Source of the DNA: Elusimicrobiota bacterium
GTDB lineage: Bacteria; CG03; SLGR01; PWQF01
DNA: 64,000 nt
NCBI GenBank assembly: GCA_003557485.1
Contig: PWOI01000196.1
Location: 1 to 64,000, forward strand
Reading direction: 5' to 3'
How positions within the stretch are numbered: position 1 is the stretch's first letter; the number at the start of each line of letters is the position of its first letter. Positions 12,062 to 26,081 of this stretch are shown here, piece after piece. The position numbers and the translations under genes are program-made. The notes under the pieces were generated by a model. The model did not search any database, had not been told where the DNA came from, and was given only the letters and a program-made list of their open reading frames with translations.

Positions 12062-13197
12062 TTCATATAATAACAAGGCTTGAACTAGGGGGCGCTCAGC
12101 AGAATACTCTCTATACTCTGGAAAATCTGCAGAAGGGCGTTTTGGGTTTTCTCGTTGCCGGCAGGGGAGGATACCTTGACACGCCGGCGAAAAAATCAGG
12201 AAGGTATTCCGTTACATTCTGTCCGTTTCTTGTAAGAAGAGTATTTCCTTTAGCTGATATTCTTGCTTTTTTCTGGATTTATTTCTATTTGCTTGGCCTT
12301 AAACCGGATATTGTACATACTCATTCCTCAAAGGCGGGTATACTGGGCAGGTGGGCCGCATATTTTGCCCGCGTTCCTGTCATTATACATACATTTCACG
12401 GTTTCGGGTTTACTCCGCTTCAGAGGACTTATGTGAAGATTTTTTTTGTTTTTCTTGAGAGGATTACAGCACCTGTTTCTGATATTCTTATCACCGTTGC
12501 CCGGGATAACATTCGCAAGGCTCTTTCCGAAAAGATAGGTAAAAAGAACCAATATGCTGTTGTCCGCAGCGGCATTAATATTAAAAAATTTGAAAAACCG
12601 GAAGAATTTGCTAATATCAGAAACAATCTGGGAATCAATTCCGCTGAAAAAGTAGTCGGAAATATTTCCTGTTTCAAACCGCAGAAGGGACTTGAGATTT
12701 TTGTAAAGGCCTGCGCTGAACTTGACAGGAAAGGAGAATACAGGTTTCTCCTGGCAGGTGACGGAATTCTGCGGGACAGAATCGAAAATTTAATATGTGA
12801 TCTGGGGCTTGAAAGAAAGTTTATACTTACCGGTTGGGTTGACGGCGCGGAAAAAGTCCTGCCCGCTATGGATGTTATGCTCCATACTGCTTATTTCGAA
12901 GGTCTGCCGCGGGTTTTCCCTGAAGCAATGGCTGGCGGTGTACCGGTTGTCGCTACGGAAGTCGACGGGGCAAGCGATATAATTATTGACGGTATAAACG
13001 GGTTTCTTGCTCCGCCCGGAGATTACAGGGTTCTTGCGGAAAAAGCCTATAAGCTTCTTGAAGACGATGATCTTAGAAAAAGTATAGCCGCAGAAGCGCG
13101 CCGGCGCCTGAAAGACGAGTTTGATATAGGAAGAATGTCAGAAAAGCTTAATGATTTATATAATGCAGAACTTAATAAAATGGAGAAAAGAAAATGA
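12046..13197 (+). CDS. GT4 glycosyltransferase
   Basis: A 383-residue GT-B fold transferase. The N-terminal domain has the donor/acceptor loop LELGGAQQNT and DIVHTHSSKAG; the C-terminal domain has the nucleotide-sugar motif E285-x7-E293 in EGLPRVFPEAMAGG and then ATEVDGASDII. It acts on the cytoplasmic face in stepwise glycan building. The start lies inside the end of the FAD-oxidoreductase gene and its end overlaps the citrate synthase gene by 4 bases, so the glycan genes run directly into the central-carbon operon. Confidence 0.88.
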   Translation: MPGKIVHIITRLELGGAQQNTLYTLENLQKGVLGFLVAGRGGYLDTPAKKSGRYSVTFCPFLVRRVFPLADILAFFWIYFYLLGLKPDIVHTHSSKAGILGRWAAYFARVPVIIHTFHGFGFTPLQRTYVKIFFVFLERITAPVSDILITVARDNIRKALSEKIGKKNQYAVVRSGINIKKFEKPEEFANIRNNLGINSAEKVVGNISCFKPQKGLEIFVKACAELDRKGEYRFLLAGDGILRDRIENLICDLGLERKFILTGWVDGAEKVLPAMDVMLHTAYFEGLPRVFPEAMAGGVPVVATEVDGASDIIIDGINGFLAPPGDYRVLAEKAYKLLEDDDLRKSIAAEARRRLKDEFDIGRMSEKLNDLYNAELNKMEKRK

Positions 13198-14948
13198 ACG
13201 ATAAAGAAAATAAAAAAGAAATGAACCTGTTCAGGGAAATATTTCCCTATTCACAGGTTCCTTATATTACATTTGAGGATGAGTTGGCAGCTATGGATAT
13301 GCCCGGAGAGATTTGGATTACCGATACAACTTTCAGGGACGGACAGCAGGCAAGGGCCCCGTATACCGTTAAGCAGATAGTCGATCTCTTTACTTTCATG
13401 CACCGTCTTGGCGGGGAAAAAGGGCTCATAAGGTTTAGTGAGTTTTTTCTTTACAGTAACAAGGACCGCGAGGCGGTCCGCAGGTGTCAGGAAAAAGGTT
13501 TTGAGTTTCCTAAGATAACAGGTTGGATAAGAGCTGTTGAACAGGATTTTCAACTGGTAAAAAAGATGGGGCTTAAGGAAACGGGAATCCTTACTTCTGC
13601 TTCCGATTACCATATTTTACTGAAGCTTAAAACTGATAGGAAAACTGCAATGGATAAATACCTCAGGGTTGTGGATGCTGCACTCGAAAACGAAATAATC
13701 CCCCGCTGCCACCTTGAGGATATAACCCGGGCCGATTTTTACGGGTTTGTCATTCCGTTTGTAAGAAAACTGATGGAACGTTCCAGACAGAGCGGGCTGC
13801 CCGTAAAGGTCAGGGCCTGTGATACACTCGGTTACGGTGTGCCTCATCCGCAGGCAACGCTTCCGCGTTCGGTTCCTAAAATTATTGAGAAGCTTAGAAA
13901 AGAAGGAGGCGTACCTTCGGAACATCTTGAATGGCACGGTCATAACGACTTCCATAAGGTAGTTGTATGCGGATTCTGCGCCTGGCTTTACGGAGCTTCC
14001 GGCGTTAACGGAACTCTTCTGGGATACGGTGAAAGAACCGGTAACCCGCCAATAGAGGCGCTGGTTGTTGACTATATGAGCCTTATGAAGACTTCAGATG
14101 GGCTCAATCCAAAAGTAATAACTGAAATGGCTGACTATTTCCGTGAAGAACTTGACGAGGAGATACCTCCTTCCTTTCCTTTTGTCGGAAGCGAATTTAA
14201 TACGACCAGGGCGGGGATTCACGCTGACGGGCTGATAAAGAACGAGGAGATATACAATATATTTGATACTGCGGCGATACTTGACCGTCCTATGAATGTT
14301 GCCATCTCCGATAAGTCAGGAACAGCCGGAATAGCTTTCTGGATAAATAATTTTATGGAGCTCAAAGACGACGAGAGAATAGATAAAAGCGATGAAAGAG
14401 TCGGAAAGATATATGAATTGATTCTAAAAAAGTACAAGGAAGGGAGAACGACGGCAATGGCAAACGAGGAAATGGAACACCTTACAAAGGAATATTTTCC
14501 CGATTATTTTGCCTCGGAGTTCGAGCATCTCAAAAAGAAAGCGGCCCGCCTTGCCGAGCACCTGGTTGAGGACCTCTCTGAAAATGATGAAATCCGGAGT
14601 ATGGATACTGAGAGGATGGAAAAGGCTATGGAAGAAATCCGCAAGGAGCATAATTTCATCCAGTTTGTCTATATAGTAGACCGCAAAGGTGTCAAGGTGA
14701 CCAGGAATATCATAAATCCCAGGTATAAGAGTGAATATGAGAAGAAAGACGTAGGTGTCATTTATTCTGATCGCCAGTGGTTTAACCAGGCTATTGAAAG
14801 CGGTATGCCTTTTGTCTCTGATTTCTATATCTCAAAAATGACGGGGCGGCTCTGCATAACTGTTTCGGCTCCAGTCAGGGATGAGTCAGACCGTATACTG
14901 GGCGTAGCCGGTATAGATATAAGTTTTGAGGACCTTGTAAAGCTATGA
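13194..14948 (+). CDS. Re-citrate synthase-like enzyme fused to a C-terminal Cache/PDC-like sensor domain
   Basis: Residues 38-430 form a DRE-TIM metallolyase of the isopropylmalate/homocitrate synthase family: TTFRDGQQ (R48, D49), the metal-binding H248-G-H250 in EWHGHND, and the GYGERTGNPP loop. The stretch FEFPKITGWIRA and the SEFFLYS motif resemble the Re-type citrate synthases of Clostridium kluyveri and relatives, which condense acetyl-CoA with oxaloacetate. Neighbours (malate dehydrogenase, aconitase-type genes, isocitrate dehydrogenase) support citrate rather than leucine synthesis. After a helical linker (about 440-485), residues 486-583 read like a Cache/PDC sensor (VYIVDRKG, YSDRQWFNQA, FVSDFYIS, LCITVSAPV, GVAGIDISFEDL). 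There is no membrane helix, so the sensor would be cytoplasmic, an unusual place for Cache. It may be allosteric. Confidence 0.82.
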   Translation: MNDKENKKEMNLFREIFPYSQVPYITFEDELAAMDMPGEIWITDTTFRDGQQARAPYTVKQIVDLFTFMHRLGGEKGLIRFSEFFLYSNKDREAVRRCQEKGFEFPKITGWIRAVEQDFQLVKKMGLKETGILTSASDYHILLKLKTDRKTAMDKYLRVVDAALENEIIPRCHLEDITRADFYGFVIPFVRKLMERSRQSGLPVKVRACDTLGYGVPHPQATLPRSVPKIIEKLRKEGGVPSEHLEWHGHNDFHKVVVCGFCAWLYGASGVNGTLLGYGERTGNPPIEALVVDYMSLMKTSDGLNPKVITEMADYFREELDEEIPPSFPFVGSEFNTTRAGIHADGLIKNEEIYNIFDTAAILDRPMNVAISDKSGTAGIAFWINNFMELKDDERIDKSDERVGKIYELILKKYKEGRTTAMANEEMEHLTKEYFPDYFASEFEHLKKKAARLAEHLVEDLSENDEIRSMDTERMEKAMEEIRKEHNFIQFVYIVDRKGVKVTRNIINPRYKSEYEKKDVGVIYSDRQWFNQAIESGMPFVSDFYISKMTGRLCITVSAPVRDESDRILGVAGIDISFEDLVKL

Positions 14949-15883
14949 AGGTTGCAGTAATAGGGGCAGGTGCGGTAGGCGGGCAGCTGGCCTTTGTGCT
15001 GGCTCTTAAGAGGTACCGGCAGATTGCGCTTATAGATACTGCCGAAGGAGTTGCCCGGGGCAAGGCTATGGATATAATGCAGTCCCAGCCCGTATGGGGT
15101 TTTCCCGGAACCGTTGAGGGTTCAGAAGATTACGCTATTATGGAAGGGTCGTCGGCAGTGGTAATAACAGCCGGATCCCCGCGAAAACCGGGAATGACCA
15201 GGGAAGACCTCTTTAATATAAATTATTCAATAATTGACAGAGTATGCTCAAATATTAAACAATACGCTCCCGGCGCCATAGTTATAGTTATTACAAATCC
15301 CCTGGACATAATGACTTATGCAGCCTGGAAGGCTACGGGATTTAATTCTTCGAGAGTGATGGGGATGGGGGGTATGCTTGACAGCGCCAGGTACCGCTAC
15401 TTTATAGCGGAAGCTGCCGGATGCGCGCCGGATGAAGCCGAGGGAGTGGTTATAGGCCCTCACGGTGAATCAATGATACCTCTTGACGGGGCACGCGCTG
15501 CCGGAAAGTCCCTGGAGGAAATTGTGGGAGAAAAAGCTTCTCTCAGGGTAAAGGAAAAGACCGCGGCCGGGGGAAAAGAAATAGTTTCTCTTCTTAAAAG
15601 CGGCAGCGCGCATTTCGCTCCGGCTGCTGCTGCCGCGGAAATGCTGGATGCCGTATTCAATGATACCGGCCGCGTGATGCCGGCATGCGTTCTGGCATCG
15701 GGACTTTGGGACCTGCCGGAGGTATATATAGGGCTTGAAGCAAAAATTGGCAGGGAAGGGGTAAAAAAACTGGTTAAAAGCGATATTTCCGAAGGCGACC
15801 TGAAGCTTTTAAAGGAAGCTGCGGATAAGCTTTGCAAAAGGCTGGAGGAAATCGGAATTTCGGATTCGGACGGTAAAAAATGA
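14945..15883 (+). CDS. mdh: Malate dehydrogenase (LDH-like type)
   Basis: A 312-residue NAD-dependent 2-hydroxyacid dehydrogenase. GAGAVGG binds the dinucleotide; the arginine in RKPGMTREDL marks oxaloacetate/malate rather than lactate specificity; ITNPLD and the catalytic histidine in GPHGESMIP are intact. It interconverts malate and oxaloacetate, the co-substrate of the citrate synthase encoded immediately upstream (4-base overlap). Confidence 0.9.
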   Translation: MKVAVIGAGAVGGQLAFVLALKRYRQIALIDTAEGVARGKAMDIMQSQPVWGFPGTVEGSEDYAIMEGSSAVVITAGSPRKPGMTREDLFNINYSIIDRVCSNIKQYAPGAIVIVITNPLDIMTYAAWKATGFNSSRVMGMGGMLDSARYRYFIAEAAGCAPDEAEGVVIGPHGESMIPLDGARAAGKSLEEIVGEKASLRVKEKTAAGGKEIVSLLKSGSAHFAPAAAAAEMLDAVFNDTGRVMPACVLASGLWDLPEVYIGLEAKIGREGVKKLVKSDISEGDLKLLKEAADKLCKRLEEIGISDSDGKK

Positions 15884-17139
15884 AACAGACTCTTACGGAA
15901 AAAATAATATCAAACCATGCCGGCAGGAAAGTTAAAGCCGGAGATATAGTGTTTGCTGATGTTGACAGGGCTTTTGTCCAGGACGGTACGGGGCCGTTGA
16001 CTGTCAAGGTCATAAAAGAGATGGGGAAGGGGCTTAACCGCCCGGAGAGAAAGTATTTCTTTCTTGACCATGCGTCGCCTTCTTCAAAATCGGAGCTTTC
16101 AGACGCGCATAAGGTGCTCAGGGATTTTACTTCTTCAACGGGCGCGGTTCTTTCCGATGTGGGCAAAGGAATATGCCACCAGATTGTGGCCGAGCAGTAC
16201 GCCCTGCCCGGAGAACTCATAGTAGGCGCGGATTCACATACTTGTACCGCTGGAGGAATCGGGGCCTTTGCTTCAGGGTTCGGATCTACGGATATAGCGT
16301 TTGCAATGGCTACGGGAAAACTCTGGCTCAAGGTGCCGCCGTCTATAAAAGTTACCCTTACCGGAAAGCTTCCCGAAAGAGTTTCGGCAAAAGACCTCAT
16401 ACTGACTCTCATAGGCCGAATATCTGCTTCGGGAGCCACTTACAGGGCTCTTGAGTTTACGGGAGAAGGGGTTGAAAATCTTTCTGTTGAAAGCAGGCTG
16501 ACAGTCTGTAATATGGTCATAGAGGCCGGCGCCAAAAACGGGGTGATGCCCGCTGATGACAGGGTCTCCGAATATATTGAGCGTGAGAGGGGATGCAAGG
16601 TTGATTTCGAAAGGCTCAGGGCTGACGAAGAGGCTGAATATGAGAGCGAAATTACTATTGATCTGGATAACCTGGAGCCGGTAGCCGCAGCTCCCCACTC
16701 TGTTGACAATATTAAAAAACTGGATGATCTTGAAAAGGAGAATATAAAAGTTGACCAGGTCTTTATCGGGACCTGTACGGGAGGACGTATTGAGGACCTT
16801 GAGGCAGCTGCAAGGATTCTTGAAGGAAAGAAAATAAATCCTTCAGTACGCTTTGCGGTATGTCCGGCGTCAGAGAAAGTTTTTATGGATGCACTGGAGA
16901 AAGGGCTCATAAGGATTTTTACCGAAAGCGGTGGTTTCATAGTGACTCCGGGATGCGGCCCCTGCGTTGGCATACAGGGAGGCGTTATGGGTAAAGGCGA
17001 AGTTTGCCTTTCAACAGCCAATAGGAATTTTAAAGGAAGGATGGGATGCCCGGAAAGTGACATTTACCTTGCTTCGCCCCAGGCGGCAGCCGCTTCCGCG
17101 CTTGAAGGAAAAATTGTTTCACCTTTAAATGCCGGGTAA
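15880..17139 (+). CDS. Aconitase / isopropylmalate-dehydratase family, large subunit
   Basis: A 419-residue [4Fe-4S] hydro-lyase of the LeuC/HacA type. Cluster ligands C299 (GTCTGGR), C359 and C362 (GCGPC) are present, as are DSHTCTAGG and the HxVxDQ-region equivalents of the family. The usual product name is isopropylmalate dehydratase large subunit, but between malate and isocitrate dehydrogenase genes it most likely works as aconitase with the small subunit that follows. Sequence alone cannot exclude action on isopropylmalate or both substrates. Confidence 0.82.
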   Translation: MKQTLTEKIISNHAGRKVKAGDIVFADVDRAFVQDGTGPLTVKVIKEMGKGLNRPERKYFFLDHASPSSKSELSDAHKVLRDFTSSTGAVLSDVGKGICHQIVAEQYALPGELIVGADSHTCTAGGIGAFASGFGSTDIAFAMATGKLWLKVPPSIKVTLTGKLPERVSAKDLILTLIGRISASGATYRALEFTGEGVENLSVESRLTVCNMVIEAGAKNGVMPADDRVSEYIERERGCKVDFERLRADEEAEYESEITIDLDNLEPVAAAPHSVDNIKKLDDLEKENIKVDQVFIGTCTGGRIEDLEAAARILEGKKINPSVRFAVCPASEKVFMDALEKGLIRIFTESGGFIVTPGCGPCVGIQGGVMGKGEVCLSTANRNFKGRMGCPESDIYLASPQAAAASALEGKIVSPLNAG

Positions 17140-17166
17140 TTAAAAAAATAGTATCGGAGTAGTAAA

Positions 17167-17658
17167 GTGAAAAAGCAGTTAAAAGGAAAAGTACATAAGT
17201 TCGGGAATAATATTTCAACGGACCTTATATGTCCCGGGAAATATTTTCACCTCAGATCGGATATAAAGAAGCTTGCCGGACACACGCTGGAGGATGCGGA
17301 TCCGGAATTTATCAAGAAGGTTCAGCCGGGCGATTTTGTTGTTGCCGGTGAAAATTTCGGGTGCGGGTCATCGCGTGAACATGCGCCGCTAATAATAAAA
17401 GAGAGCGGTGTCGGCGCGGTGCTTGCCGGAAGTTTTGCAAGAATTTTTTTCAGGAATGCCGTTAATATCGGCCTTCCTGTAATGGAGCTTGATACTTCCG
17501 GTATGGAGAGCGGCGATGAACTTCTTATAGACGCCGAGAGCGGTAAAGTCAAAAACCTGAGCAAAAACACAGAATTGACAGCCACCCCTCTGACAGGAGT
17601 TATGAAGGATATCCTTGAGGCAGGCGGCCTTAAGGAGTATGTGAGAAAGGGGCTGTAA
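17167..17658 (+). CDS. Aconitase / isopropylmalate-dehydratase family, small (swivel) subunit
   Basis: A 163-residue LeuD-type swivel domain with the substrate-binding signature [12 protein letters not shown] and the helix [15 protein letters not shown]. It starts with GTG; GGAG at 17156-17159 is 7 bases upstream. It would pair with the large subunit encoded 27 bases upstream to interconvert citrate and isocitrate. Length is normal for the family. Confidence 0.85.
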
Positions 17659-17659
17659 G

Positions 17660-18742
17660 TTGGGCAGACACAATATTACGCTTATACCGGGTGACGGGAC
17701 CGGTCCGGAAGTTTCCGCAGCCGCTCGTAAGTGCGTTGATGCTTGCGGTGTGGATATAAACTGGGAAATTGCCGAAGCCGGAGCTGATGTGATGGATAAG
17801 TTCGGTACCCCGCTTCCGGAAGGGGTTATAGAATCCATAAGGAAAAACAGGGTTGCGATTAAAGGCCCGATTACTACTCCGGTAGGGACAGGGTTCAGGA
17901 GCGTCAATGTGGCCATACGGAAAAAACTTGACCTCTACGCCTGTGTGCGCCCATGTAAGTATTATCCCGGGGTGAGAGCTCCTTACGAAGACGTAGACCT
18001 TGTGGTCGTTAGGGAAAATACCGAGGACCTATATGCCGGGATAGAGTTTGAGAAAGACTCCCGGTCCGCATCGGATTTTAAAGAATTTCTGAAGGAAAGA
18101 GATATAACCGTCAGGGATGATTCCGGATTCAGCATAAAACCAATATCGGTTGAAGGGTCCAGGAGAATAGTTGATTATGCTTTCAGGCATGCCGAGAAAT
18201 ACGGCAGGAAAAAAGTTACCGCAGTACATAAAGCAAATATAATGAAACATACAGACGGGCTTTTCCTGGAGGTTGCCAGGGATGTTGCCAAAAATTATGG
18301 TGATATTGAGTTTGAAGACAGGATAGTTGATAATATGGCTATGCAGCTGGTACAGAAGCCTCACCTTTATGACGTGATTGTTCTTCCCAATCTTTACGGT
18401 GACATAATATCCGACCTTGGCGCGGCGCTGGTCGGGGGGTTGGGCCTGGCTCCGGGAGCCAATGTAGGTGAGGACTGCGCAGTTTTTGAACCGACCCACG
18501 GTTCGGCTCCTAAATACAGGGGTATGGATAAGGTCAATCCTACGGCAACCATACTTTCAGCGGTTATGATGCTGCGTTATATCGGTGAGTCGGATGCTGC
18601 CGAAAGGCTGGAAAACGCGATTGCGGAGGTAATAAAAGAAGGAAAAGATGTTACCTACGACCTTAAGGCGGACAGGGAAGACCCGGATTCTGCCGGCACA
18701 AGCCGTATGGCCGACGCCATATGTGAAAAGCTAAATGAATGA
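17660..18742 (+). CDS. icd: Isocitrate dehydrogenase, probably NADP-dependent
   Basis: A 360-residue member of the isocitrate/isopropylmalate dehydrogenase family. [23 protein letters not shown], with the substrate-binding serine, marks isocitrate rather than isopropylmalate. Coenzyme-specificity positions read K285, Y286 and V292 ([12 protein letters not shown]) and Y333, matching those that bind the 2'-phosphate of NADP in E. coli Icd; only the fifth, Arg395 in E. coli, differs (A337). NADP use is therefore inferred, with NAD possible. It makes 2-oxoglutarate. The start is TTG with an AGGGG sequence about 8 bases upstream. Confidence 0.87.
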
Positions 18743-19526
18743 AGAAACTTTCTCAGGAAAACTTTCGGAAGAGATAATAAATTCAACAAGAGTTGTTCCC
18801 GGGTCATTAAAAGACGCGATTGAAAAGGCAGCCGCAGAAGCGGAAGGCCTTGAAAAAAAGGTTCTTGAAAAGATAGTCGAAAACTGCCGTATAGCTTCCG
18901 CTTCACGGGTACCGGTATGCCAGGATACCGGTGTTTTTGAGATATGGCTCAATATCGGTAAAGACGCCTCCGTGAAAGGTATAGATTTCAGCCGCGCGGT
19001 TTCCGCGGCCCTTAAAGAAGCCCATGAAAAAGGCGGACTGCGAAGGTCTATGGATCCGGAAATAGCGGGAGCGGTTCATATTTCTTTCTGCGGCGGCGCA
19101 GCGGTTGAGGCAATTATAACTCCGCGCGGTTTTGGAAGCGAGAACTACACGTTTCTGCGAAGCCTGCCTCCGGGCGCATCTGACGCGGATGTAAAAGAAG
19201 CCGTAATTGAAGAAACCGCTAAAGCTTCAGCGCGCCCCTGCCCTCCTTATGTTATAGGAGTAGGGCTCGGGGGAACGGCTTCTTCTGCCGTTGAACTTTC
19301 GGCGAAGGCCCTGACTGAAATAGATTTTTCTCCTTCCGGACTGGAGAAGGAGATACTTGACGGAATCAATCTTACAGGCACGGGTGCCGGCGGAATGGGC
19401 GGAAGGTTTACCGCAATAGGCATAAAGATAAAAAGAATGCCGGCGCATATAGCGGGGCTTCCGCTCTGTGTCCATGTCGGATGCTGGTGCAACAGGGTAA
19501 GTGTATTTAAGATTGAAACAGATTGA
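18735..19526 (+). CDS. Class I fumarate hydratase, alpha subunit
   Basis: A 263-residue subunit of the oxygen-sensitive [4Fe-4S] fumarase (or L-tartrate dehydratase relative). Candidate cluster cysteines are C62 in VPVCQDTG, the cysteine in [15 protein letters not shown] and those in GCWCN. It overlaps the isocitrate dehydrogenase gene by 8 bases and the beta-subunit gene follows at once. With the beta subunit it interconverts fumarate and malate, next to malate dehydrogenase in the same operon. Confidence 0.88.
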
Positions 19527-20040
19527 GTTTCCCGTAAGTTCACCGGAGAGCCTTAAAAATCTGAAGGCCGGGGACGAAGTGCTTTTAAGCGGCGTTATAT
19601 ATACGGCTAGGGACAGGGTTCACAGACTGGTTGCGGAAGGCAGGGCTGAATGGCCTTTTGAACTGAAAAATAATGCGGTATATTACTGCGGGCCCACTCC
19701 GGCGTCTGAAGGGTTCCCCATGGGATCCTGCGGGCCAACGACATCCGCGCGTATGGATAAATGGACTGCCGGACTATACTTCAGAGGATTGGCGGCCACT
19801 ATAGGGAAGGGGCCGAGGAATGAAGTAGTACGTCGCTCTATAAAGGATGCCGGCGCAGTTTATTTTTCGGCTTTCGGCGGCTGCGGAGCTCTATACGGAA
19901 GCAGGGTGCTGAAAGCTTCAGTAATCGCTTTCGATGATCTGGGGCCACAGGCGGTTTACAGGGCGGAAATAAAGAATTTTCCTGTAGTTGTGGGGATAGA
20001 TCCTTCGGGAAATAATATATTTGAGAATTTAAAATTTTAG
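19501..20040 (+). CDS. Class I fumarate hydratase, beta subunit
   Basis: The C-terminal-type subunit of the split Fe-S fumarase: GDEVLLSGVIYTARDRVH, YYCGPTPA, GSCGPTTSARMDKW and GGCGALYG are family signatures. The reading frame opens at GTG 19501, but family members begin close to the residues encoded from TTG 19513, so the true start may be 12 bases later; AGGG (19494-19497) is not well placed for either. About 175-180 residues, as expected. Confidence 0.87.
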   Translation: MYLRLKQIEFPVSSPESLKNLKAGDEVLLSGVIYTARDRVHRLVAEGRAEWPFELKNNAVYYCGPTPASEGFPMGSCGPTTSARMDKWTAGLYFRGLAATIGKGPRNEVVRRSIKDAGAVYFSAFGGCGALYGSRVLKASVIAFDDLGPQAVYRAEIKNFPVVVGIDPSGNNIFENLKF

Positions 20041-20049
20041 GAGGGAGAT

Positions 20050-20496
20050 TTGGATAAAACACTTGTAATAATAAAACCTGACGCTCTTATGAAGAAGGTA
20101 GCAGGGGAAATTATAAAACAGTTTGAAGAGGAAGGGGTTGAGATTCTGGGAGCAAAACTTGTAAAGATGACTCCGGAAGAAGCCGGTGAGTTTTATATTG
20201 AACACAGGGAAAAGCCTTTTTATGTGCCCCTGACTGAATTTATGTCTTCTAATCCCTGCCTTGCTATGGTTTTAGGAGGTAAAAATATTATTGAAAGGTC
20301 GCGGGAAATAATAGGCAGTACCGATCCTGCAGAGGCAGAAGAAGGGACAATAAGGCAAAGATGGGCCAGTGACGGCAGGTATAACGTAGTTCACGGCTCC
20401 GATTCTCCACAGAGCGCTTTAAGGGAAATAGAATTTTTCTTTCCTTCGGGAGCAGGTATATACAAACGGGAGCCAAAGGAATACAACACTAAATGA
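20050..20496 (+). CDS. ndk: Nucleoside diphosphate kinase
   Basis: A 148-residue NDP kinase that balances NTP pools by phosphotransfer through a histidine. The active-site histidine lies in YNVVHGSDS, and the N-terminal TLVIIKPDA is typical. The start is TTG, supported by GGAGG at 20040-20044. It sits between fumarase and acetate kinase genes, where ATP or GTP made by acyl-phosphate chemistry could be redistributed. Confidence 0.93.
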   Translation: MDKTLVIIKPDALMKKVAGEIIKQFEEEGVEILGAKLVKMTPEEAGEFYIEHREKPFYVPLTEFMSSNPCLAMVLGGKNIIERSREIIGSTDPAEAEEGTIRQRWASDGRYNVVHGSDSPQSALREIEFFFPSGAGIYKREPKEYNTK

Positions 20497-21719
20497 AAAA
20501 GAATATACTTATCCTTAACTGCGGCAGCTCTTCCGTGAAGTACGAACTGATGGATATGGATAATTCCGGTATCGTTGCAAGCGGGTTTATTGAAAGAGTG
20601 GGAATGGAAGATGCGGTAATACACCATCATTACCGATGCGGTGACGGATACAGTGATATTAAAACCTCTAAAAGCATTCCCAGACACCGCGAAGCCATAG
20701 AATTCATTATGAATCTTCTGATGGATGATGAAATAGGTGTTATAGAAGACATAAAAGATATTTATGGTATAGGCCACCGCGTGGTTCACGGTGGGGAAAA
20801 ACATATAGAGTCAGCTTATATTACCGGAGAGGTGAAGCAGGACATAAAGGACTGCATAGACCTGGCTCCGCTGCATAATCCTCATAATCTTACCGGGATA
20901 GAGGCATGTGAAAAACTGATTCCGGATCATCACCAGGTAGCAGTATTTGATACTGCCTTTCACCAGACTATTCCGCGGCATACTTATATATATGCGCTGC
21001 CCTATGAAGCCTATTCCAAGTACGGAATCCGTAAATACGGATTTCACGGAACTTCGCACCAGTATGTGGCTTCGCGAGCCGCCGAAATGCTGGGTAAACC
21101 CCTGGAAAAACTGAAGATAATATCATGCCATCTTGGAAACGGGGCCAGCGCCTGCGCGGTAAAAGAAGGAAAGTCAATAGACACGTCTATGGGTTTTACT
21201 CCTCTTTCGGGACTTGTAATGGGGACCCGCTGCGGGGATATAGATCCTGCTGTGCTTCTATACCTTATGAACAAGGAAGCGTTTTCGGCTCACGAGATGA
21301 GCGTTATAATAAACAGGCATTCGGGGCTTTTTGGTATATCTGGCGTTTCAAGGGATTTCAGGGAGATACTTGAACAGGCCAAAGAAGGCCACGACAGAAG
21401 CCAGCTTGCAATTGATATTTTTGCATACCGCATTAAAAAATATATCGGGTCCTATGCCGCGGCGATGAACGGACTGGATGTTCTGGTTTTTACTGCCGGC
21501 ATAGGAGAAAATTCCGTTGAACTTAGGGATATGGTATGTTCGGAAATGGAATACCTGGGGATAGATCTTGACAGAAAGAGAAACGAGAAGTACACCGGCA
21601 CTGAAGGAATTATCTCGGCAGCGGATTCAAAAGTTACTGTAATGACTCTTCCTACGGACGAAGAGTTTATGATAGCCAGAGAAACACTGAGGATCATAGG
21701 AGAGTTGAAGAATGTGTGA
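20493..21719 (+). CDS. ackA: Acetate kinase
   Basis: A 408-residue acetokinase that makes ATP from acetyl phosphate. LILNCGSSSVKY, HRVVHGGE, FHGTSHQY, SCHLGNGAS, GTRCGDIDP and TAGIGENS are all present in order. It overlaps ndk by 4 bases. No phosphotransacetylase gene is within the window, so the source of acetyl phosphate is not shown. Confidence 0.95.
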   Translation: MKKNILILNCGSSSVKYELMDMDNSGIVASGFIERVGMEDAVIHHHYRCGDGYSDIKTSKSIPRHREAIEFIMNLLMDDEIGVIEDIKDIYGIGHRVVHGGEKHIESAYITGEVKQDIKDCIDLAPLHNPHNLTGIEACEKLIPDHHQVAVFDTAFHQTIPRHTYIYALPYEAYSKYGIRKYGFHGTSHQYVASRAAEMLGKPLEKLKIISCHLGNGASACAVKEGKSIDTSMGFTPLSGLVMGTRCGDIDPAVLLYLMNKEAFSAHEMSVIINRHSGLFGISGVSRDFREILEQAKEGHDRSQLAIDIFAYRIKKYIGSYAAAMNGLDVLVFTAGIGENSVELRDMVCSEMEYLGIDLDRKRNEKYTGTEGIISAADSKVTVMTLPTDEEFMIARETLRIIGELKNV

Positions 21720-22224: not shown

Positions 22225-23988
22225 ATGTCGGAAAACAAAAAAAACAGAATACTTATATGCTCCGGGACAAGCGGTGTTTCGGCCGGTTGCGGAAAGGTGA
22301 GAAGCAGGTTTGAGGAAGAACTGAGAAACCGGGGAATTGAAAGCGATTGGGAAATTGTCAGTGTAGGGGACCGCGGGCTTTTCAGGGATGTTCTGGTGGA
22401 TATAATGGACAGCCGCGGCAGGGTAAGTTATGAATATGTTTCTCCTGAGGATGTTTCAGGTATTGCAGAGAGCCATCTGGTAGGCGGGGGTCTCTTCAAT
22501 GAGCGTCTTGCCGGAGATGATTACAAGAACTTCTTTGAGAAACAGACACGTATAGTGCTGTCAAACTGTGGAGAAATAGATCCTGATAAAATAGATGAAT
22601 ATATAGAAAGGCAGGGGTACGCAGCGCTTAAAAAAGCTCTTGATTCTTCACCTGAAGAAGTCATCGAAGAAATTAAAGATTCCGGTCTTAGAGGACGCGG
22701 CGGAGCCGGGTTTCTCGCCGGCCTTAAATGGGAATTTACTCGCAATGCGTCCGGCAGTGAAAAATATGTAGTCTGTAACGCTGACGAGGGTGACCCGGGT
22801 GCCTTTATGGACCGTAGTATTCTTGAAGGCGATCCCCATTCTGTTATAGAAGGAATGGCAATTGCAGGGTACGCTGCCGGCGCCGGTGAGGGTTTCATCT
22901 ACTGCAGGGCTGAATACCCGCTTGCCATTAAAAAGCTTAAAAAAGCCATATCCCTGGCTGAGAAAGAAGGTTTCCTTGGAGATAACATACTTAGCAGCGG
23001 GTTTTCGTTCCGGCTCAATATAAAAGAGGGAGCCGGTGCTTTTGTATGCGGAGAAGAGACAGCGCTCCTTGCTTCAATTGAAGGCAGGCGGGGAATGCCC
23101 GTTCCACGGCCTCCTTTTCCCGCTGTTGAAGGGCTCTGGGGAAAACCCACACTTATTAACAATGTAGAAACACTTGCCAATGTGAGGCATATAATACTTA
23201 ACGGGGCGAAGTGGTTCTCTTCAATGGGAAGCGGGGATAGTAAAGGCACGAAGGTTTTCGCCCTTGCAGGAAAGGTAAAGAACACAGGGTTAGTGGAGGT
23301 TCCGATGGGCACTACGCTAAGGGATCTCATATTCGGGCCCGGGGGGGGGATGGCTGAAAGAAAATCAGAGTTTAAAGGAGTTCAGATAGGCGGGCCTTCC
23401 GGCGGATGCCTGCCGGAGGATCTGCTGGATACGTCTATTGATTACGAGTCACTCAACGCCACCGGCGCTATAATGGGGTCCGGAGGTATGATAGTTATGG
23501 ATACCGGAAGCTGTATGGTTGATATAGCGAAATTTTTTCTTGATTTTACCGTAGCCGAATCCTGCGGCAAGTGTGTCCCCTGCCGGGTGGGGCTGAAAAG
23601 AATGCAGGAGGTTGTGGAACTCATCACATACGGAAAAGGAACTGACAGCCATATCGATTTTCTCCGGGATATGGGAAATACAATAAAGAATACCGCTCTC
23701 TGTGGATTGGGGAATACCGCGCCGAGTCCTGTGCTGACTACCCTCAGGTATTTTGACGATGAGTACAGGGCTCATATAGACCGCCGCAGTTGTCCTTCCC
23801 TGGTATGTATAGACCTTTTAAATTTTGAAGTCAACGAGGAATTGTGTAAAAAATGCGGCAAATGTCTGCCTGTATGCCCTTCGGATGCTATTTCCTGGAG
23901 AAAGAAAGAGTTTGCCCGGATAGATAAAGATAAATGCATTAAGTGCCGGGCCTGTATAGTAGAGTGCCCTTTCAAGGCAATAGAATGA
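22225..23988 (+). CDS. stnB: NuoF/HydB-like NADH-binding flavoprotein of a Stn-type transhydrogenase
   Basis: A 587-residue FMN and Fe-S subunit. Order: N-terminal [2Fe-2S]-type thioredoxin fold (CSGTSGVSAGCG, about residues 12-23), the FMN/NADH region (GLRGRGGAGFLAGLKW, CNADEGDPGAFMDR, CGEETALLASIEG), an SLBB-like segment, the NuoF [4Fe-4S] site (CGKCVPC with a later CGLG), and a C-terminal double [4Fe-4S] ferredoxin (CKKCGKCLPVCP and CIKCRACIVECP). This is the layout of HydB/HndC and StnB. It starts 3 bases after the NuoE-like gene. A run of nine G lies at 23341-23349 without breaking the frame. Confidence 0.88.
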   Translation: MSENKKNRILICSGTSGVSAGCGKVRSRFEEELRNRGIESDWEIVSVGDRGLFRDVLVDIMDSRGRVSYEYVSPEDVSGIAESHLVGGGLFNERLAGDDYKNFFEKQTRIVLSNCGEIDPDKIDEYIERQGYAALKKALDSSPEEVIEEIKDSGLRGRGGAGFLAGLKWEFTRNASGSEKYVVCNADEGDPGAFMDRSILEGDPHSVIEGMAIAGYAAGAGEGFIYCRAEYPLAIKKLKKAISLAEKEGFLGDNILSSGFSFRLNIKEGAGAFVCGEETALLASIEGRRGMPVPRPPFPAVEGLWGKPTLINNVETLANVRHIILNGAKWFSSMGSGDSKGTKVFALAGKVKNTGLVEVPMGTTLRDLIFGPGGGMAERKSEFKGVQIGGPSGGCLPEDLLDTSIDYESLNATGAIMGSGGMIVMDTGSCMVDIAKFFLDFTVAESCGKCVPCRVGLKRMQEVVELITYGKGTDSHIDFLRDMGNTIKNTALCGLGNTAPSPVLTTLRYFDDEYRAHIDRRSCPSLVCIDLLNFEVNEELCKKCGKCLPVCPSDAISWRKKEFARIDKDKCIKCRACIVECPFKAIE

Positions 23989-26081
23989 TTAATTTAAAGA
24001 TAGACGGCAAAGAAATAAAGGCCCATCCTTCCGCCACAGTTCTGGAAGCAGCCTTGCAGGCCGGTATTTATATACCCAACCTGTGCTATCACCCCGATAT
24101 ACCCCCAGCAGGGGCATGCCGCCTCTGTATTGTAAGTATAAAGGGCGGCAGGGGAGTAGTGACTTCCTGTACTGTAAAAGTCCGGGAGGGGATGGAGGTC
24201 ACAACAAATAACGATGAAATCAGAAAAATGAGGGAGAATATCCTCTGGCTTACACTCAGCGAGCTTCCGGAGGATATAGATGAGACTTCCCAGCTTTACA
24301 AAGTTGCCCGCTGGACGGGAATAAAAAATATTCTTGAAAATTACAGCCGTAAGCCAAAAAACATACCCGTTAAAACGGAGGATCCTCTCTTTATAAGAGA
24401 TATGAACAGGTGCATACTCTGCGGCAGATGCGTCAGGATGTGCCGCGATATAAGAAAGACGGGAGTGCTCGGCTTTTCGGGAAGGGGAATAGATACTACC
24501 GTAGAGACAGCTTACGGGATGCCGCTGGCAGATTCAGCCTGTAAATTCTGCGAGGCATGTGTTGAAGTATGCCCGTCCGGAGCGCTTGAAGATAAAAGAA
24601 AACCCGATCCCTCCTGCAGGGAAAAAACACTGGTTCCCTGCACAAACAACTGCCCGGCAAAAATAGATGCGGCAAGGTATGTAAAGCTGATTGCCCTGGG
24701 AAAATACCGCGAGGCTCTGGAAGTGGTAAGGGAGACAGTTCCCTTTCCGGAAGTCCTGGGACACGTATGCGACCATCCCTGCGAAGAGGAGTGCCGCCGG
24801 AACGATATTAATGAAGCAATAGCAATCAGGTCCCTGAAAAGATTCGCAGCCGAGAAAGGGTCAGATAGGTGGCGAGATAAAATTAAGATACTTCCGGATA
24901 CCGGCAAAAAAATCGCTGTAGTCGGAGCCGGCCCGGCCGGATTGACTGCCGCCTGGTTTCTAAACAGGCTGGGTCATTCTGTTACGGTCTTTGAGGCAGG
25001 TTCCAGCCCGGGAGGAATGATGCGCACCGGGATACCCGCTTACCGTTTGCCCCGGGACGTTCTGGATAGGGAAATTAAAGATATTGTGAGTTTCGGGGTT
25101 AAGATAAAAACCGGCATTAAAATTGAAAACCTGGAAGAACTTTTTAAAGAAGGTTTCAGCGCAGTCTTTCTGGCAACCGGCGCATCTGAAACTATGACGA
25201 TGGGAATTGAAGGGGAAGATGATACCCGCGTGCTTCAGGGAATAGGAGTTCTGGGTGATATCTCCTCAAAAAAAGATACCGGGCTTAAAGGAAAGGTTGC
25301 AGTTGTAGGAGGCGGCAATGTTGCTATAGATGTTGCCCGCAGCGCTTTGAGATCGGGCGCGGAGAAGGCGGTAATACTCTACAGGCGCACCAGGGAGGAA
25401 ATGCCCGCTCTGGAGGAGGAAGTTGAAGATGCCCTGAAGGAAGGTGTGGAAATCCGCTTCCTTACAGCCCCGGTTAAAATCGCATCTTCCGGAGAAAATC
25501 TTAAAATTGAATGCATAAAGATGAAACTCGGCAAGCCCGATTCCGGGGGGAGAAGGCGTCCTGTACCAATAGAGGGCAGCGAGTATGTTTTTGAGGCAGA
25601 CCGTCTGGCAATGGCAATAGGACAGAAACCCTCCGTGCCCGGCGGTTGTGCGTCTCTTAAGAATGACTGGGGAGGAATTGAAGTTGACGGTGGTACGATG
25701 AAGTCTTCAATGGAAGGGGTATTTGCAGGCGGCGATGCGGTAAGCGGCCCGGCCTCGGTAATTAAAGCCATACGGGACGGAAGAAAAGCCGCTTCTTCAA
25801 TAGACAGGTATTTAGGAGGCAGCGGGGATATTGACCAGAAGCTTGCTCGGGACGAGACAGAGATGCCCTGCCTGGGAAGGGAAGAAGGGTTTGCCTTCAG
25901 GGCGAGGGCTGAAATGCCTCTTCTTGACGGGAAAAAGCGGACCGCAAGTTTCTGCGCTGTGGAAAAGGGGCTCCCGGAAAAAGAGGCCCTGGAAGAGGCA
26001 GGCCGCTGCCTGAGCTGCGCGCTCAGGCTGGGCATATCTGAAGCTCCTGAGCCTCCCGTGAAAGAGGAAGATAGCGGATAA
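23985..26081 (+). CDS. stnC: StnC-like fusion: NuoG-type ferredoxin domains plus NfnB/GltD flavoprotein
   Basis: A 698-residue protein. Residues 1-90 form a [2Fe-2S] ferredoxin (NLCYHPD, GACRLC, SC), residues about 130-205 hold two [4Fe-4S] motifs (CILCGRCVRMC and CKFCEACVEVC), and from about 210 on there is a glutamate-synthase-small-subunit/NfnB module with CxxNC and CDHPCEEEC cluster cysteines, VVGAGPAGLTAA for FAD, VVGGGNVAIDVAR for NAD(P) and AGGDAV. There is no hydrogenase H-cluster domain, so it is not HydA. With the two genes upstream it matches StnABC, which couples NADPH, NADH and ferredoxin. ATG 23985 overlaps the previous stop by 4 bases and is preferred over the in-frame codon at 23943. 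Confidence 0.82.
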   Translation: MINLKIDGKEIKAHPSATVLEAALQAGIYIPNLCYHPDIPPAGACRLCIVSIKGGRGVVTSCTVKVREGMEVTTNNDEIRKMRENILWLTLSELPEDIDETSQLYKVARWTGIKNILENYSRKPKNIPVKTEDPLFIRDMNRCILCGRCVRMCRDIRKTGVLGFSGRGIDTTVETAYGMPLADSACKFCEACVEVCPSGALEDKRKPDPSCREKTLVPCTNNCPAKIDAARYVKLIALGKYREALEVVRETVPFPEVLGHVCDHPCEEECRRNDINEAIAIRSLKRFAAEKGSDRWRDKIKILPDTGKKIAVVGAGPAGLTAAWFLNRLGHSVTVFEAGSSPGGMMRTGIPAYRLPRDVLDREIKDIVSFGVKIKTGIKIENLEELFKEGFSAVFLATGASETMTMGIEGEDDTRVLQGIGVLGDISSKKDTGLKGKVAVVGGGNVAIDVARSALRSGAEKAVILYRRTREEMPALEEEVEDALKEGVEIRFLTAPVKIASSGENLKIECIKMKLGKPDSGGRRRPVPIEGSEYVFEADRLAMAIGQKPSVPGGCASLKNDWGGIEVDGGTMKSSMEGVFAGGDAVSGPASVIKAIRDGRKAASSIDRYLGGSGDIDQKLARDETEMPCLGREEGFAFRARAEMPLLDGKKRTASFCAVEKGLPEKEALEEAGRCLSCALRLGISEAPEPPVKEEDSG

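Follow-up and report, generated by a model that had tools for sequence, protein, structure and literature searches.

The 584-residue protein encoded at positions 13194 to 14948 of the window (the whole 64,000-nucleotide stretch of DNA analysed here) ends in a C-terminal tail that is a single PDC/Cache module staying in the cytosol. The sequence relationships of the protein support its assignment as a Re-citrate synthase, with Re-stereospecificity ascribed through its relatives. We think it probable that this enzyme, which is of the type found in Clostridium kluyveri and Syntrophus aciditrophicus, is controlled by a small carboxylate acting through the cytosolic Cache domain. The fusion is common and is not special to the source genome. 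The gene, and the parts of the protein to which we refer below, are placed as follows.

13194..14948, + strand: predicted Cache-bearing Re-citrate synthase, 584 aa; ATG start; first gene of the TCA gene block
13314..14132, + strand: HMGL-like (DRE-TIM) catalytic barrel, residues 41-313; Pfam PF00682, E 8e-25; homocitrate synthase 6ktq, Z 33.5
13335..13340, + strand: R48-D49, by analogy with the DRE-TIM family the catalytic Arg and a metal-binding Asp; invariant in 52 sequences
13935..13943, + strand: H248-G-H250, by analogy with the DRE-TIM family the metal-binding HxH; invariant
14133..14510, + strand: post-barrel region, residues 314-439; natural Cache-less relatives stop here; sub-threshold HCS_D2 match at 332-381
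14499..14945, + strand: PDC/Cache domain, residues 436-584, from Pfam, profile and fold; includes the long first helix, 442-462
14772..14783, + strand: R527-Q-W529-F530, predicted carboxylate-binding motif; R in 95%, W in 100% and F in 96% of 93 sequences
14826..14843, + strand: Y545-x-S547-x-x-T550, predicted pocket; Y in 84%, S in 100% and T in 96% of 93 sequences
14916..14918, + strand: D575, equivalent of PctA D173 by alignment; 99% conserved

The tail is recognized both by sequence profiles and by its predicted fold. In Pfam, residues 440-581 match dCache_1 (PF02743) at 46.3 bits against a cut-off of 45, and residues 516-581 match MCP-like_PDC_1 (PF22673) at 43.1 bits against a cut-off of 27. 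Both families are matched (E<0.01) by 93 of 93 homologous C-terminal domains, and 37 of the 93 additionally match YkuI_C, which belongs to the Cache clan and is known from cytosolic proteins (PMC4822843). A domain-specific profile, run against solved structures, retrieved the Cache domains of chemoreceptors as well as KinD and PctA. Because a fold search with the whole protein listed barrel matches only, the tail was modelled separately with AlphaFold from the 93 sequences (pLDDT 89.9), and the predicted structure contains the long N-terminal helix (442-462) and the central sheet of the PDC fold. Its fold matches include WalK (Z 16.3, rmsd 2.5, 131 residues aligned), KinD (Z 15.8, rmsd 3.2, 138 aligned), CitA (Z 15.3, rmsd 2.6, 127 aligned), DctB (Z 14.7, rmsd 3.3, 137 aligned) and DcuS (Z 14.4, rmsd 2.5, 125 aligned). 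Foldseek agrees on the PDC/Cache fold, with YkuI (2bas) among its matches. Given that all 93 relatives match and that the fold agrees, a chance or marginal Cache match is ruled out.

A first-pass annotation of this DNA had read the last ~100 residues as a Cache/PDC sensor. The fold search bears out the type of domain, returning PDC folds at Z 14-16 over 120-140 residues, but the domain is longer than had been proposed, at about 149 residues. The annotation had also placed the catalytic residues correctly: R48/D49 lie in the context F47-R48-D49-G50, H248-x-H250 reads H248-G-H250, and R48, D49, H248 and H250 are invariant among 52 aligned homologues. Its statement that the protein lacks a membrane helix holds as well, as the highest 19-residue Kyte-Doolittle mean in the 584-aa protein is 1.24 and falls within the barrel. 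The domain thus departs from the usual Cache placement, which is extracytoplasmic and between two membrane helices. Mainly intracellular exceptions are the families YkuI_C and Diacid_rec (PMC4822843).

The identity of the enzyme is best approached through its relatives. The full-length model is closest in fold to homocitrate and isopropylmalate synthases (6ktq, Z 33.5, rmsd 5.0, 370 residues aligned). A tree was made of 81 catalytic domains, comprising the family of 73 and eight LeuA/CimA/NifV-like paralogues from the same phylum; a long branch with 99% SH-aLRT support (quick search) divides the two groups. One homologue, from the class Syntrophia, is 52% identical over residues 9-583 (575 residues) in a gapless alignment that includes the Cache domain and all the catalytic motifs. 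Read from its ATG, this homologue has 629 aa and a mass of 71,766 Da, with longer N- and C-terminal tails, and it groups at 99% with a named Syntrophaceae sequence in the tree of 81 catalytic domains. We take it to be the Re-citrate synthase of Syntrophus aciditrophicus SB (SYN_02536). The S. aciditrophicus enzyme is reportedly Re-stereospecific, from work by Kim et al. in 2013, and its C-terminally Strep-tagged subunit is said to have a mass of 72,892 Da. A 71,766-Da reading frame therefore fits the full-length, Cache-bearing protein; we estimate that removal of the Cache domain would leave a protein of the S. aciditrophicus type at about 52 kDa. Very probably, then, a Re-citrate synthase that has already been proven, that of S. 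aciditrophicus, carries a Cache domain.

The surroundings of the gene point in the same metabolic direction. The synthase gene opens a one-strand TCA block that continues with genes for malate dehydrogenase, both aconitase subunits, isocitrate dehydrogenase and two fumarase subunits.

14945..15883, + strand: malate dehydrogenase; NF004863, 332.8 bits, cut-off 283
15880..17139, + strand: aconitase/homoaconitase-family large subunit; TIGR01343, 547.6 bits, cut-off 385.7
17167..17658, + strand: aconitase/IPM-isomerase-family small subunit; TIGR02087, 190.3 bits, cut-off 109
17660..18742, + strand: isocitrate dehydrogenase (IDH/IPMDH family); NF006529 best, E 5.5e-117, under the equivalog cut-off
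18735..19526, + strand: class I fumarase alpha-type subunit; TIGR00722, 168 bits, cut-off 100.7
19501..20040, + strand: class I fumarase beta-type subunit; TIGR00723, 149.6 bits, cut-off 145.2
20493..21719, + strand: acetate kinase family, downstream; TIGR00016, 523 bits, cut-off 293

In 23 of 80 homologous loci, at least one TCA gene of such a kind shares the strand of the synthase gene, and we estimate that such genes are rare in unrelated 12-kb stretches. The aconitase of the block (15880-17658) has two subunits and is of the homoaconitase/IPM-isomerase type, as opposed to AcnA or AcnB. Elsewhere in the window, positions 23943-26081 (+ strand) encode a 712-aa protein in which a NuoG-like N-terminal region (Fer2_4, Fer4_Nqo3) is fused to a GltD-like one (Fer4_20, Pyr_redox_2). 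This gene overlaps a NuoF-like gene at 22225-23988 by about 45 bases, and the two products possibly form a bifurcating or NADH-linked electron-transfer complex.

In the genomes sampled, the protein largely takes the place of the Si-type enzyme. No match to PF00285 (Si-citrate synthase) occurs in the source genome, which at 87% completeness makes this weak evidence alone, or in seven other sampled genomes of its order, all of which carry the Cache-bearing protein. PF00285 is also absent from nine of nine whole genomes around named loci with a Cache-bearing copy, among them Fundidesulfovibrio agrisoli, Desulfocarbo indianensis and a Desulfovibrio desulfuricans MAG. Within the class Syntrophia, the Re-type protein and Si-citrate synthase are largely mutually exclusive: 79 of 155 genomes have only the Cache-type family protein, 45 only the Si-type enzyme, 17 both and 14 neither (Fisher 5e-13, a statistic that ignores kinship; the Si-type was counted at E<1e-80, and one gene truncated at a contig end was added). 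In a many-phyla sample of 386 genomes, PF00285 is found in 3 of 14 Cache-bearing carriers outside the source order versus 238 of 350 non-carriers (p 6e-4), and in 9 of 14 Cache-less carriers (p 0.78 versus non-carriers). Compared directly, Cache-less and Cache-bearing carriers differ in the presence of the Si-type enzyme with p 0.054, and the Cache form is possibly kept where it is the sole citrate synthase. One genome (G271) has a Cache-bearing and a Cache-less copy (the pair L123 and L137) together with a Si-type citrate synthase, offering a natural comparison of both forms. Taken with the S. aciditrophicus homologue and the TCA operon, the exclusion supports the Re-type citrate synthase that the first-pass annotation had proposed, and the tree does not show the outcome that would have refuted this proposal, a catalytic part grouped with the isopropylmalate or homocitrate synthases.

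The Cache fusion is found in more than 100 homologues from many phyla. A scan of genome contigs recovered at least 591 relatives, and nearly all of the best 80 span the Cache domain; groups named among the relatives listed include Deltaproteobacteria/Thermodesulfobacteriota, Nitrospirae, Omnitrophota, Spirochaetes, Lentisphaerae, Fibrobacteres, Armatimonadetes and others. In 17 Cache-less homologues the alignment ends at residue 436-440 and a stop codon comes 0-31 residues later. Cache-less relatives with 42-62% identity in the catalytic part show that the fold can do without the domain, and catalysis probably can as well. Cache-bearing and Cache-less proteins are mixed on the catalytic tree, with at least nine changes on the best tree and three forced by starred branches, and this scatter means that the domain was gained or lost repeatedly. 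Counts of changes on the catalytic tree do not separate gain from loss. However, catalytic and Cache distances are correlated (Mantel r 0.70, against a maximum of 0.18 in 999 permutations) and the junction between the two parts is gapless; for these reasons we prefer one old fusion followed by repeated losses of the Cache domain. More distant relatives are also Cache-less: the deep relatives at 38-43% identity comprise L139, L140 (genomes G052 and G197) and proteins of the Deinococcus megaplasmids NZ_CP031163 and NZ_CP097152. A plasmid search returned distant relatives only, with 38% identity for the best of them, a ‘pyruvate carboxyltransferase’ on a Deinococcus megaplasmid. That annotation, carried by the megaplasmid relatives, names a substrate that is only putative.

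Overall, sequence divergence in the Cache domain is twice as rapid as in the catalytic part, and the most conserved Cache residues across 93 sequences include G499, R527, W529, F530, S547, T550, L553, T556, S558 and D575. R527 aligns with KinD R131 and with PctA R126, the latter of which contacts the carboxyl group of the ligand (PMC10104139). KinD binds pyruvate in its distal PDC domain (PMC8534201), and the fold matches include the KinD entries 4jgp (with pyruvate) and 4jgq/4jgr (R131A). The PctA motif Y121/R126/W128/Y129/D173 is incomplete in the family: R, W and D are kept, the Y121 position is variable (E in 31%, Y in 11%) and the Y129 position is F in 96%. In addition, the invariant S547 occupies the position of an Asp in PctA. 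With this motif incomplete, an amino acid was ranked lower as a candidate ligand. As the family does not retain the part of the PctA site that faces the amino group, the conservation pattern of the pocket points to a carboxylate lacking an amino group.

We propose that acetyl-CoA and oxaloacetate would be condensed with Re-face specificity at a metal-dependent DRE-TIM site, by what is the only citrate synthase found in the source genome. A small carboxylate that lacks a free amino group would bind the Cache pocket via R527, with W529, Y545, S547, T550 and D575 predicted to line the site; pyruvate, another 2-oxo acid or a dicarboxylate would be the first candidates. Binding might displace the long first helix (442-462), the link between the Cache domain and the post-barrel region, and this movement might alter catalytic activity, a role that the LeuA regulatory domain plays in isopropylmalate synthase. 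We infer the class of ligand, the movement of the helix and the sign of the effect. Direct small-molecule control of TCA-cycle entry had been suggested in the first-pass annotation: the fold and the conservation of the pocket speak for it, and the control itself is a conjecture drawn from sequences and models.

Several other readings of the same protein deserve consideration. Rather doubtful, in our view, is the possibility that the Cache domain of a true Re-citrate synthase is purely structural, serving subunit assembly or stability with no regulatory ligand. Cache-less relatives exist and the domain seems to have been lost repeatedly, and PDC domains often dimerize through their long first helix. 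However, the most conserved positions include those that line the ligand pockets of KinD and PctA, which a scaffold would not need. We regard it as improbable that the domain is instead an interaction or signalling module that relays a metabolite signal not to its own active site but to a partner protein. Cache domains are paired with signalling output domains (PMC4822843), which is what gives this idea its appeal, but no signalling gene was seen in the TCA operon of the window and the synthase is the only output attached.

The remaining alternative concerns the catalytic domain, which could belong to a homocitrate, citramalate or isopropylmalate synthase and not to a citrate synthase. The nearest NCBIfam models are indeed NifV, LEU1_arch and LeuA, yet all these matches are far under their cut-offs (128 versus 463 bits at best). 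Furthermore, the source genome has two separate LeuA/CimA/NifV-like paralogues, such paralogues form their own clade, and both the TCA operon and the exclusion with Si-citrate synthase speak for citrate formation. This alternative is largely refuted, and we consider it extremely unlikely. Control of a Re-citrate synthase by a carboxylate at its own Cache domain is the reading that we favour.

Given that the kind of enzyme and the kind of domain are already known, and that public Pfam models find the domain, it is the fusion that is apparently undescribed. The openly accessible literature searched contains no mention of a Cache domain on a Re-citrate synthase, and no description of the regulation of this enzyme was found there. 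A 2016 survey presents Cache domains with signalling outputs and as principally extracellular, with two small exceptions (PMC4822843). If true, the role of an enzyme-attached sensor would broaden the known function of Cache domains beyond signalling. At its broadest, our proposal is that Cache domains serve, within the cell too, as allosteric modules on an enzyme of central metabolism, that a carboxylate sensed directly by the citrate synthase sets TCA-cycle entry in many anaerobes, and that repeated loss of the domain marks lineages no longer needing this control; we regard its chances as evenly balanced. The fusion is widespread, so a switch at TCA-cycle entry is testable in many anaerobes. 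Moreover, the domain is conserved across many anaerobic phyla and probably occurs on an enzyme that has already been purified, and thus the question of the effector is answerable by one laboratory.

Among known systems, the S. aciditrophicus Re-citrate synthase is the nearest counterpart, sharing the two-domain architecture, 52% identity and all catalytic motifs with the window protein, although its gene has none of the window's TCA genes adjoining. A Re-citrate synthase of C. kluyveri was reportedly described by Li et al. in 2007. That enzyme is of the same kind, but it is short (about 450 aa) and is not known to carry a Cache domain like the one present here. A candidate Re-citrate synthase of Kuenenia is 55.1% identical to the C. 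kluyveri enzyme (PMC8027424). LeuA and homocitrate synthases have in common with the window protein the barrel fold and the layout of a barrel followed by a C-terminal accessory domain; however, their accessory domain is a LeuA regulatory or RAM domain where the window protein has a Cache domain, and the clades are separate. The distal PDC domain of KinD and the domains of CitA, DctB and DcuS share the fold of the tail (Z 14-16) and all bind small carboxylates, but they are extracytoplasmic parts of membrane-bound histidine kinases whereas the window Cache domain is cytosolic. YkuI (EAL plus YkuI_C) resembles the window protein in carrying a cytosolic Cache-clan C-terminus on a soluble TIM-barrel protein; YkuI, however, belongs to c-di-GMP signalling, while the window protein is an enzyme of central metabolism.
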